A DNA stretch of 45,562 bases. Source: Thiotrichaceae bacterium (lineage in GTDB: Bacteria; Pseudomonadota; Gammaproteobacteria; Thiotrichales; Thiotrichaceae). The notes below the pieces were generated by a model that saw nothing but the letters and a program-made list of their open reading frames with translations, made no database searches and had not been told where the DNA came from. How positions within the stretch are numbered: position 1 is the first letter of the stretch; each line of letters begins with the position of its first letter. The position numbers and the translations under genes were made by a program. This document shows positions 40,518 through 44,600 of the stretch, piece by piece. The stretch spans positions 1-45,562 of the forward strand of contig JALXAX010000147.1 of the NCBI GenBank assembly GCA_026991755.1. The letters are read 5' to 3'.

Positions 40518-40542
40518 TTAATGTCCTGTGAAATGAGGGTGA

Positions 40543-40571
40543 ATATTATTTGATTAAACCATTTTTACCAA
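40543..40571 (-). promoter_or_regulatory. Predicted sigma-70 promoter of dnaG
   Basis: On the minus strand TTGGTA (40566-40571) and TAATAT (40543-40548) are separated by exactly 17 bp. The start would fall near 40536, about 18 nt before the dnaG ATG. The -35 box touches the TGTGA-type operator at 40572-40587. Confidence 0.6.
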
Positions 40572-40587
40572 TGTGACTCGTGTCACA
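40572..40587. promoter_or_regulatory. CRP-type operator, perfect TGTGA-N6-TCACA
   Basis: The 16-bp palindrome TGTGACTCGTGTCACA matches both CRP half-sites exactly. Its centre (40579.5) lies about 41.5 bp before the start expected from the TATTAT box of the DUF2892 promoter, the class II activator position. It also abuts the -35 box of the dnaG promoter on the other strand. The Crp/Fnr-family gene some 400 bp away is a candidate binder. Confidence 0.7.
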
Positions 40588-40608
40588 TACCTACGCATCA
40601 AGCAGAGC

Positions 40609-40614
40609 TATTAT
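40609..40614 (+). promoter_or_regulatory. -10 box of the DUF2892 gene
   Basis: TATTAT stands about 37 nt before the DUF2892 start codon. At the -35 position (40586-40591, CATACC) there is no sigma-70 match, as expected for an activator-dependent promoter with the operator overlapping -35. Confidence 0.5.
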
Positions 40615-40650
40615 CACACTTCCTCAATAAAGAATGAACAAGGTTTAGTT

Positions 40651-40836
40651 ATGAAAAACGTAGGCTCAATTGACAGAATTCTTCGTATTATCGTCGGTAT
40701 CGCTATTATGGGTGCTGGTTACTATTTCAAAAACTGGTGGGGCGCAATTGGCGCTGTACCGGTATTGACTGCTTTAATGGGCTGGTGTCCTGCTTATACG
40801 CTTTTAGGTATTAAAACCTGTCCAGTTAATAAGTAA
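40651..40836 (+). CDS. Small DUF2892 (YgaP-like) inner-membrane protein
   Basis: A 61-residue protein of the DUF2892 family, which also forms the membrane part of YgaP-type rhodaneses. It begins MKNVGSIDRILRIIVG and has two hydrophobic segments (about 9-25 and 30-45) around a KNWW turn. The family signature GWCPAYTLLGIKTC carries two cysteines (C46 and C57). The start was set at the ATG at 40651, because AAGG lies 7 nt before it and the family always begins here; an in-frame upstream ATG at 40573 lies inside the operator. Exact biochemical role is unknown; neighbours in other genomes often link it to sulfur or redox metabolism. It stands alone, diverging from dnaG. Confidence 0.93.
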   Translation: MKNVGSIDRILRIIVGIAIMGAGYYFKNWWGAIGAVPVLTALMGWCPAYTLLGIKTCPVNK

Positions 40837-40978: not shown

Positions 40979-41608
40979 CTACTTGTGCAGTGACTCCTTG
41001 AGTCTATTGATATCGACACAGTGTAGTTTACCTCGCTCAAGTACAATCACGCCATCTTGCTCTAATTTCTTAAGTTTTCTGCTAATAACTTCTCTACTTG
41101 TACCCAACTCTTCGGCAATTTCCTGATGCGTCGCTACTATTTCATGCTTCTCGCCACTTACATTACGCAGTAGCCAAATCACTATGCGTTTTTTCAACTC
41201 ATCAAAGGCTAATGAGTTGGCAAGGTCAATCACATCCGCAAAGCGCTGGCTCAATATAGCAATCACATAATCGCGCCAGGTTTCACTCTCGTTCATCCAC
41301 TGCTTCACTAATTTGGCGGGGATGGCAATACCTTCCACATCTGTTTTCGTTTCAGCAATTGCAGGGAACGCTTGCTGATTAAGAATACAACCTGCCGTCA
41401 ATATACAGGATTCACCCGCCGAGATATGATAAAGGCTAATACTACGACCATCTTCCGCGGGCTTATAAACGCGCACCACTCCCGAAGTAAGCACCACCAA
41501 ATCCGCACATACTTGGCCTTGATGACATACCACCATACCTTCAGGTACAGATATTTTCTTTACCCACGATTGGTTAGCTTTCAGAAAATCGGCAATACTA
41601 TTTTCCAC
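40979..41608 (-). CDS. Crp/Fnr-family transcriptional regulator, cysteine-rich
   Basis: A 209-residue regulator with a GTG start. Residues about 15-120 form the cyclic-nucleotide-binding-like beta-roll (VPEGMVVCHQGQVCADLVVL), 120-145 the dimer helix and 145-205 the winged helix. The recognition helix TSREVISRKLKKL has R172, E173 and R177 in the CRP-type R-E-x3-R pattern, predicting TGTGA half-sites. The beta-roll lacks a convincing cAMP-pocket signature (no G-E-x-x-x-x-R-S-A) but carries C28, C34, C68 and C74 (ESCILTAGCILN), so it may sense redox or sulfur species. It lacks the N-terminal cysteine cluster of FNR. It begins 33 bp after metH on the same strand and faces the DUF2892 gene, whose promoter holds a matching operator. 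Confidence 0.93.
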   Translation of the reverse strand: MENSIADFLKANQSWVKKISVPEGMVVCHQGQVCADLVVLTSGVVRVYKPAEDGRSISLYHISAGESCILTAGCILNQQAFPAIAETKTDVEGIAIPAKLVKQWMNESETWRDYVIAILSQRFADVIDLANSLAFDELKKRIVIWLLRNVSGEKHEIVATHQEIAEELGTSREVISRKLKKLEQDGVIVLERGKLHCVDINRLKESLHK

Positions 41609-41641
41609 TAGATACTCGCTCGCTCATTACAACGCTAACTA

Positions 41642-44600
41642 TCAATAGCCAAGGACAGGCGACAGCCATTTCTCGACCTCTTCTACACTCATGCCTTTAC
41701 GTTTTGCGTAGTCTTCCACCTGATCCTTCTGGATTTTACCCGTACCAAAGTAAACACTTTGAGGGTGGGAGAAATACCAGCCTGATACGGAGGCTGCTGG
41801 GTACATCGCATAAGACTCTGTAATGGTCATACCAATCCGCTCTTCTACTTCTAACAACTCCCATAATGAAGCTTTTTCAGTATGATCAGGGCAAGCAGGA
41901 TAACCAGGTGCGGGTCGAATGCCTTGGTAAGATTCTTTGATTAGCTCCTCGTTAGACAAACCTTCATCCACCGCATAGCCCCAGAATTCTTTACGTAACC
42001 GCTCGTGCATACGTTCTGCCATGGCTTCTGCAAAACGATCACATAGGGCTTCCAGCAGAATGGCGTTGTAGTCATCATGTGCTTCACGGAATTTCTCTAA
42101 ATGGGGTTCGATACCCACGCCACCGGTTACTGCAAATGCACCGAGCCAATCCTGAACACCACTTTCTTTGGGTGCAATGTAATCTGCCAAACAGAAATTA
42201 GGACGCTGACCACCACGATCTAGCTGTTGACGGATATGATGTAAATCCATTCTTACCGTCTCACGACTTTCATCCGTGTACAATTCAATATCATCATCAT
42301 TGACTGAGTTAGCGGGGAATAGTCCGATAACAGCCTTAGCCGTGATCCATTTTTCTTTAACGATTTGATCCAGCATAACCTTGGCTTCGTCGTATAGCTT
42401 GCTTGCTGCTTCGCCTACCACTTCATCCGTTAGAATCGCCGGGAATTTACCTGCTAGCTCCCAGCTTCTAAAGAATTGTGTCCAGTCGAATCGCTCGATC
42501 AAATCTTCCAGTGGATAATCATCAAACTGTATAATCACACCGCCTGAATCTAGCGTACTTACGCTGTAATCCTCGCCATCTTTTGGTGCATCAAGCAAGA
42601 CTGGCTTGACGGGTTTGGTCTTTTCATCAGTCCAATCAATCGGTACTTTATTGGCTCTGGAAGCCGCTAAAGTTGAGGATTTCTTAACACGCTGATTCGC
42701 TGCACGCTTGACCCGTAATGCCTCGTACTCATCTTTATAGCCTTTTATAAACTCATCACGATCATCTTCAGATAGTAGCTTACTCGCCACGCCGACTGCA
42801 CGAGAAGCATCCGCCACATGAATCGCAGCGCCATGATATTCAGGGTCGATCTTAACGGCAGTATGGATTTTAGAAGTTGTTGCACCACCGATTAGCAAGG
42901 GTAAATCCATGCCTAGGCGCTCCATTTCCTTACCAACGTTAACCATCTCATCCAGTGATGGGGTGATCAGACCTGACAAGCCAATGATATCGACGTTTTC
43001 TTCAACCGCTTTCTTTAAAATATCATCCGTAGGAACCATTACACCCATGTCGATAATTTCGTAGTTATTACATTGCAACACCACGCCTACGATATTTTTA
43101 CCGATGTCATGCACATCGCCTTTTACCGTTGCCATGAGTATTTTTCCATTAGCTTGCAAATCACCGTCTTTCTCGGCTTCCAGATAAGGCATAAGATAAG
43201 CCACAGCTTTTTTCATCACACGCGCTGATTTAACCACTTGAGGCAAGAACATTTTTCCATCGCCAAACAAATCGCCCACCACATTCATGCCATCCATTAA
43301 TGGCCCTTCGATGACGTTGATAGGTCGTTTTAGCTCGATTCGTGCTTCTTCGGTATCTTCAATTACAAAGGCATCTATACCTTTTACCAACGCATGTTCT
43401 AAACGCTTAGCGATAGGCAACTCACGCCACTCTAAATCTTCTTTCTTTTCGGCAACTTTGCCATCGCCCATGTAATCGCCAGCAATGTCCATCAAGCGTT
43501 CGGTAGCATCTTCCCGCTTGTTTAAGACCAAGTCTTCAACCGCATCGCGTAGCTCTTTAGGCAGATCATCAACAATCGCCAGTTGTGCCGCATTCACAAT
43601 ACCCATCCCCATACCATTGTGGATCGCATGATAAAGGAACACAGCATGAATGGCTTCACGTACGGGGTTATTGCCACGGAAGGAGAACGATACGTTAGAT
43701 ACACCGCCCGAAACCATGGCATAAGGCAAGGTATCGGTAATGTCTTTAGTCGCTTCGATAAAGTCAACAGCGTAGTTATTATGCTCTTCGATACCTGTGC
43801 CAACCGCAAATATATTAGGGTCGAAAATAATATCTTCAGGTGGGAAACCGACTTCTTTAGTCAGCAAGTTATAAGCATTAGTACAAATCTCTACTTTGCG
43901 CTCACGGGTGTCTGCTTGCCCTACTTCGTCAAACGCCATAACGATAACCGCCGCGCCATAACGACGAATGAGTCTCGCTTGTTTAAGGAAGTTATCAACG
44001 CCCTCTTTCATGGATATCGAGTTAACGATCCCTTTACCCTGAATACATTTTAAACCCGCTTCGATCACTTCCCATTTTGAGGAGTCAATCATGATCGGCA
44101 CACGGGAGATATCTGGCTCAGAAGCAATCAAGTTCAAAAAGCGCACCATGCACTCTTTGGACTCCAACATACCCTCGTCCATATTAATGTCGATCACTTG
44201 CGCACCGGCATTTACTTGATCTAGCGCTACTTCTAAAGCCGTGTCGTAATCTTCTTCTTTGATAAGGCGCTTAAAGCGTAATGAACCTGTTACATTGGTT
44301 CGCTCACCGACGTTAACAAATAAGCTGTCTTTTCCGATATTGAATGGCTCTAGCCCAGCAAGACGGCATTCAACGGGGAGATCAGGAATTTTGCGGGGTG
44401 CAATACCTGCTACTGTATCTGCAATGGCTTTAATGTGATCAGGTGATGATCCACAACAGCCACCGACAATATTAAGAAAACCGCTCTCTGCCCATTCTTT
44501 AATATGTTCCGCCATGCCCGCAGGATCAAGATCATATTCACCAAACTCATTCGGTAAACCCGCATTTGGGTGAGCCGATACATAACCGTTACAAATACGC

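Follow-up and report, generated by a model that had tools for sequence, protein, structure and literature searches.

Which protein reads the palindrome between dnaG and a small membrane-protein gene in this Thiotrichaceae DNA, and what does it switch? The window, i.e. the whole stretch of 45,562 nucleotides analysed here, carries at positions 40572–40587 the sequence TGTGACTCGTGTCACA, an N4-type operator without strand assignment in which the half-sites TGTGAC and GTCACA flank TCGT with no mismatch. The perfect TGTGA-N6-TCACA palindrome of the original prediction is indeed present. On the plus strand, a -10 box TATTAT (40609–40614), a conserved hexamer, lies 21 bp 3' of the operator. Since the -10 box sits there, transcription is predicted to start at about 40621, which puts the operator centre (40579.5) at -41.5, as had been proposed; CRP class II promoters have this geometry, with the site centred at -41.5. 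The downstream gene (40651–40836, plus strand) encodes a DUF2892 protein of 61 aa with a YgaP-like transmembrane domain (PF11127, 83.4 bits). Comparison with homologs places its start at the ATG at 40651 and not at the GTG at 40573 of the longest open reading frame. It had also been claimed that there is no -35 box. The hexamer at that place, CATACC (40586–40591, plus strand), is poor, with 2 of 6 consensus bases, but a remnant is conserved: in 28 non-redundant loci, drawn from the 43 with a site, the flank to the right of the operator reads (T/G)AC at -33 to -31, with A in 28/28 and C in 27/28. This flank looks like a degenerate -35 that overlaps the operator edge and keeps a 17-bp spacer to the -10 box.

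The genome scan proposed for the palindrome yielded 4 exact copies of TGTGA-N6-TCACA in the 3.66-Mb genome, where about 3.5 are expected (3.66 Mb / 4^10), so that rarity is weak evidence; matches with two or fewer mismatches numbered 20 in the window, and 25.5 were expected. Rarity was therefore rejected as an argument, the frequency being close to chance genome-wide. The site stands above chance because its sequence and position are conserved across loci. On a matrix built from 46 other loci, the operator is the top-scoring place of the window (17.7). The CRP consensus scores 15.6 on the same matrix, near the window site, and thus the motif alone does not separate cAMP-CRP from the linked regulator. 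The description "CRP-type" fits the TGTGA half-sites but misses that the C at position 6 is near-invariant and that position 4 may be A.

Loci for comparison came from a scan of genome contigs with the DUF2892 protein as query, which gave 70 loci, and from a search of 95 related genomes with the Crp/Fnr protein as query, in which 76 had some match, many of them weak, and 30 loci were taken. DUF2892 matches that start less than 150 bases from the end of a contig were dropped from the upstream test set, as was the duplicate locus L076. The pattern TGTRAC-N4-GTYACA was found with at least 11 of 12 positions upstream of DUF2892 in 40 of 55 cases where the locus encodes a Crp relative (the window included and close relatives kept in), and in 3 of the 30 cases where it does not. 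At a score of at least 11, the reversed motif was found in 0 of 85 upstreams, and the rate for monoshuffled upstreams was 0.08%. The three exceptions without a Crp relative are L001, which ends soon past DUF2892, L027, at whose far end lies a Crp fragment, and L030. The 15 of 55 crp-linked upstreams without an N4 site count against the operator reading; in 11 of these the half-sites are the same and fit best when spaced by N3. Usually, crp precedes DUF2892 on the same strand and the operator lies between them; in the window and L002–L005 the two genes are convergent. A -10-like hexamer (at least 4/6) lies 21 bp past the 16-mer in 18 of the 28 non-redundant loci, the next offset reaching 8. Related two-gene units recur in other Proteobacteria, some with the half-sites one base closer. 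In L087, each of two DUF2892 genes has its own operator-like site (TGTGACTTTCATTACA and TGTGACTTGTGTTACA).

A strict pattern, TGTRACYNNRGTYACA, was searched in 18 genomes picked because they had yielded DUF2892 loci. It matched in 15 of them at 17 places, 15 of which are DUF2892 promoters; the match was single in 13 of the 15 matching genomes, and the control pattern had 0 places. The strict matches of L272 and L273 have neither DUF2892 nor a Crp relative within 1.5 kb. In the window's genome, the looser TGTRAC-N4-GTYACA has one exact site, and with one mismatch or fewer there were 18 sites versus 42 for the control, which gives no evidence of further targets in that genome. Across the family, the loose pattern matches 26 of 63 genomes and its reversed control 39; this lack of enrichment counts against the operator reading.

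The gene linked to the site lies at 40979–41608 on the minus strand and encodes a Crp/Fnr-type regulator of 209 aa with the recognition helix TSREVISR and cysteines at 28, 34, 68, 74 and 197. PF00027 (42.6 bits) and PF13545 (51.3 bits) both match above cut-off and place the protein in the Crp/Fnr superfamily, and the palindromic operator, which by sequence lies at class II distance, agrees with this assignment. The curated CRP model gave 46.9–47.7 bits against a cut-off of 266, which is strict, since it was passed by only 1 of 14 control genomes. No protein of this genome, rated 100% complete, is above the CRP cut-off, and the best is the window regulator itself with 46.9 bits. CRP contacts cAMP through E72, R82 and S83. 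ERSA of 4bh9 aligns with AFPA of the window regulator, so that FPA replaces the cAMP-contact RSA, and R172, E173 and R177 are retained. Of 157 relatives, 156 retain Cys68, 140 Cys74 and 129 Cys34. The protein is also not an FNR, which has an N-terminal cysteine cluster for [4Fe-4S], as its own five cysteines form no such cluster. Nor is it an ArsR protein: its top family matches are of Crp/Fnr type, and the ArsR/SmtB subfamily model reached 17.8 bits versus 55 (among the best 25 of 36 NCBIfam matches). The regulator gene lies 33 bases past metH on the same strand (window 41608–41642), and the adjacency of metH and crp is kept in two same-genus genomes, L083 and L099. Because of this short gap and the kept adjacency, the regulator may be co-transcribed with the methionine synthase gene metH.

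The linked regulator very probably uses the palindrome as its class II operator, and the palindrome is very probably the on-switch site of a two-gene unit in which the regulator would activate DUF2892. The original prediction had named the Crp/Fnr protein encoded at 40979–41608 as a candidate to bind the site; this is supported by the conservation of site, spacing and gene linkage and by the lack of a CRP above cut-off in the genome. The predicted class II layout agrees with the -10 offset and the operator position, both conserved across loci. The reading that we consider likely is that the palindrome is a dedicated operator of the adjacent Crp/Fnr protein, which would activate DUF2892 in the class II manner and receive a sulfur signal via its cysteines and not cAMP. 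The regulator dimer would bind TGTGAC-N4-GTCACA at -41.5, over the poor -35, and the bound dimer would recruit RNA polymerase for DUF2892 transcription. Sulfide, persulfide or polysulfide would act on Cys68 and Cys74, often with Cys34, in the effector domain, and binding would be switched by this cysteine chemistry. Regulator binding, activation rather than repression and the identity of the ligand are what we infer here.

The signal is suggested by the neighbours of regulator relatives elsewhere. For 44 relatives without a nearby DUF2892 gene (or added by hand), 10 downstream ORFs were picked by eye for a Pfam scan, and 8 of the 10 were sulfur-type genes, that is, 8 of the 44 relatives and not a majority. 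They comprise Pyr_redox_2 proteins in L221, L237 and L241, the first matching the sulfide-quinone reductase 3sz0 (E 1.5e-154); persulfide dioxygenase-like metallo-beta-lactamase proteins in L101 and L183, whose best NCBIfam match is Blh at 346.7 and 373.6 bits versus a cut-off of 625, the L101 protein also matching 4ysk and, less strongly, ETHE1; rhodaneses in L198 and L206; and a Sulf_transp protein in L225. In L212, the next gene resembles the rhodanese of L198 and L206. Among the 8 sulfur-linked relatives, 5 are without Cys34 and 1 is without Cys74, which counts against a shared cysteine chemistry. Near the DUF2892 loci, 60 ORFs chosen from 174 found by a crude ORF finder matched 56 families, and no sulfur theme was seen among the best 25 of the 56, which include RrnaAD (5), rotamase (5), SurA_N (4) and PdxA (3). 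The crp-DUF2892 pair looks self-contained in these gene neighbourhoods.

In Azospira suillum, the DUF2892 gene Dsui_0042 was about 10-fold higher in sulfide-oxidising cells, and its deletion slightly delayed oxidation and left the rate unchanged, according to excerpts of PMC5358917; the comparison condition in the Fig. 6 legend of that paper is heterotrophic growth, and sulfide may not be the only thing that differed. The operator-bearing DUF2892 gene of A. oryzae DSM 21223 is 30.9 kb from clpA, a distance that fits the numbering in the same excerpts (clpA is Dsui_0009 and DUF2892 is Dsui_0042). The second PF11127 match of the A. oryzae genome lies on the opposite side of clpA, about 119 kb away; dnaA, on another contig, was uninformative as a synteny anchor. 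From the clpA distance, Dsui_0042 is probably the ortholog of the operator-bearing gene. Because 8 of 44 relatives precede sulfur-type genes and expression of the Azospira DUF2892 gene rises, sulfide or sulfane sulfur is the probable signal. The available portion of PMC8014003 holds nothing on this regulator.

These same two observations, namely the sulfur-type genes after 8 of the 44 relatives and an Azospira induction that accompanied sulfide oxidation (PMC5358917, excerpts), speak against the strongest alternative, which keeps the operator and the regulator and replaces the signal by an Fe-S cluster, a metal, NO or general redox acting via the cysteines. We regard it as possible, although unlikely. 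The conserved cysteines could ligate a metal or a cluster, and elsewhere DUF2892 genes are found in a microoxia-linked gene group (a passage of PMC5295598) and in an operon whose expression falls in an nnrR mutant (a passage of PMC6710368).

The preferred reading also takes the regulator as an activator. It is improbable that the dimer instead represses by covering the -35 region until the signal releases it, because the -35 is poor, the centre is held at -41.5, which is the activator position of Crp/Fnr proteins, and the promoter-proximal half-site keeps its distance to the -10 box even where the operator is one base shorter. What repression would explain is the overlap of the operator with the degenerate -35. 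It would also match a functional analog, YgaV of E. coli, which represses ygaVP as described in part of PMC9774250.

That another Crp/Fnr protein of the genome binds the site seems more improbable still. Candidates would include the paralog on G000:C87 and FNR-like proteins. Apart from that paralog and a broken relative on G000:C5, the genome's remaining Crp/Fnr proteins are FNR-like or unassigned. The paralog (L074 / L271) shares TSRE and Cys34, 68 and 74 with the window regulator, but at L271 there is no DUF2892 gene and no near-consensus site within the 3.7 kb examined; FNR-like proteins carry different recognition helices, and conservation of the site follows the linked gene. The broken relative, L080 (G000:C5:400-792), has two internal stop codons. 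That the palindrome is a chance match, as its 4 exact genome copies versus about 3.5 expected would allow, or a classical cAMP-CRP site is very improbable, since it is conserved across loci and no protein comes near the CRP cut-off.

An effect on the replication gene on the other side had also been considered. The weak candidate dnaG promoter, TTGGTA-17-TAATAT (40543–40571, minus strand, 8 of 12 consensus bases), is thought to lie outside the module, and the operator centre is 43.5 bp before the inferred dnaG start at 40536. A promoter scan with a threshold of 9/12 reported neither this candidate nor the DUF2892 promoter, and its sole match, on the minus strand at 40532–40504, extends into dnaG itself. 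Among loci L001–L176, dnaG adjoins the site only in the window's own loci and in two others, L152 of the same genus and L001, a Thiotrichaceae MAG that carries the same site. These two preserve the order dnaG-site-DUF2892, but the sequence left of the site, including the proposed dnaG promoter bases, is not conserved in L001, and the link to dnaG and replication was therefore rejected.

The distance between the half-sites differs among relatives. A second set was taken from 398 genomes of the phylum, 88 of which had a match, and comprised 61 loci with DUF2892 (the window being L177); after removal of 5 scoring below 10 and 3 without a readable helix (all with gap 3), 53 remained. Gap 3 was best in 43 of 45 loci with alanine before R-E, and where valine or serine stands there, gap 4 was best in 7 of 8 loci (6 of 7 if the window is left out). 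In both sets, alanine was present in 54 of 58 N3 proteins versus 2 of 47 N4 proteins, a count that excludes relatives shorter than 150 residues or with E above 1e-25, as well as the duplicates L076, L082 and L112–L176; 52 of its 157 rows had no clear spacing. A -10-like hexamer lies at 21 bp in 28 of 49 N3 loci (next 8) and in 21 of 34 N4 loci (next 6), all non-redundant. Since the offset is 21 bp in both types, the promoter-proximal half-site appears fixed and the distal half-site moves. A quick tree of 112 proteins requires only 2 changes of spacing, so the link between residue and spacing is clade-bound, and there are too few independent pairs to test it. Exceptions are L182 (alanine with N4) and L198, L206 and L212 (valine with N3); L068, on a long branch, has alanine with an N4-like site of score 10 and is doubtful. 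The residue before R-E as the sole cause of spacing was rejected on the first four, with L068 as a doubtful fifth. Spacing thus seems to track a recognition-helix residue, with exceptions, on about two evolutionary changes. The chances are evenly balanced that these proteins form a cysteine-based, sulfane-sulfur-responsive Crp/Fnr subfamily whose operator occurs naturally in two spacings, as an N4 16-mer and an N3 15-mer built from the same half-sites, with polymerase contact kept by the fixed promoter-proximal half-site and the dimer adapting via valine or serine versus alanine before R-E. We know of no earlier description of such a one-base change.

This analysis assigns to the orphan membrane protein DUF2892 a regulator of its own, a promoter and a probable signal. 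The loci also offer a compact natural series of how a Crp/Fnr dimer may shift its operator spacing by 1 bp with class II geometry kept. A Crp/Fnr-type sulfide switch, if true, would be a second fold for sulfide sensing beside the ArsR-type repressors; none was named in titles and abstract openings among the literature matches listed.

The window regulator resembles E. coli CRP in its fold family, its R-E-xxx-R recognition helix, the TGTGA half-sites and the centre at -41.5. It differs in having FPA where CRP has the cAMP-contact RSA, in its conserved cysteines, in a site with C at half-site position 6 and A allowed at position 4, in one strict match per genome in 13 of 15 matching genomes, and in the N3 variant of its relatives. 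FNR is alike in its Crp/Fnr fold and class II promoters and differs in its N-terminal cysteine cluster, which is absent here; its site is TTGAT-N4-ATCAA. HcpR-type regulators control hcp and nitrosative stress genes through GTGA-N6-TCAC sites. Of the proteins with a solved structure, the one that matches best by sequence (105 bits) is 3dv8, a Crp/Fnr regulator, presumably of Eubacterium rectale, which has cysteines aligned with Cys34, 68 and 74. YgaV of E. coli has the ArsR fold and is a repressor, whereas the window regulator is a Crp/Fnr protein. The E. coli YgaP is a rhodanese-like enzyme according to part of PMC9774250, whereas only the membrane domain is present here. The two systems are nevertheless alike in that YgaV, a homolog of SqrR/BigR, is, in the same part of that paper, a sulfide-responsive cysteine regulator encoded beside a YgaP gene.
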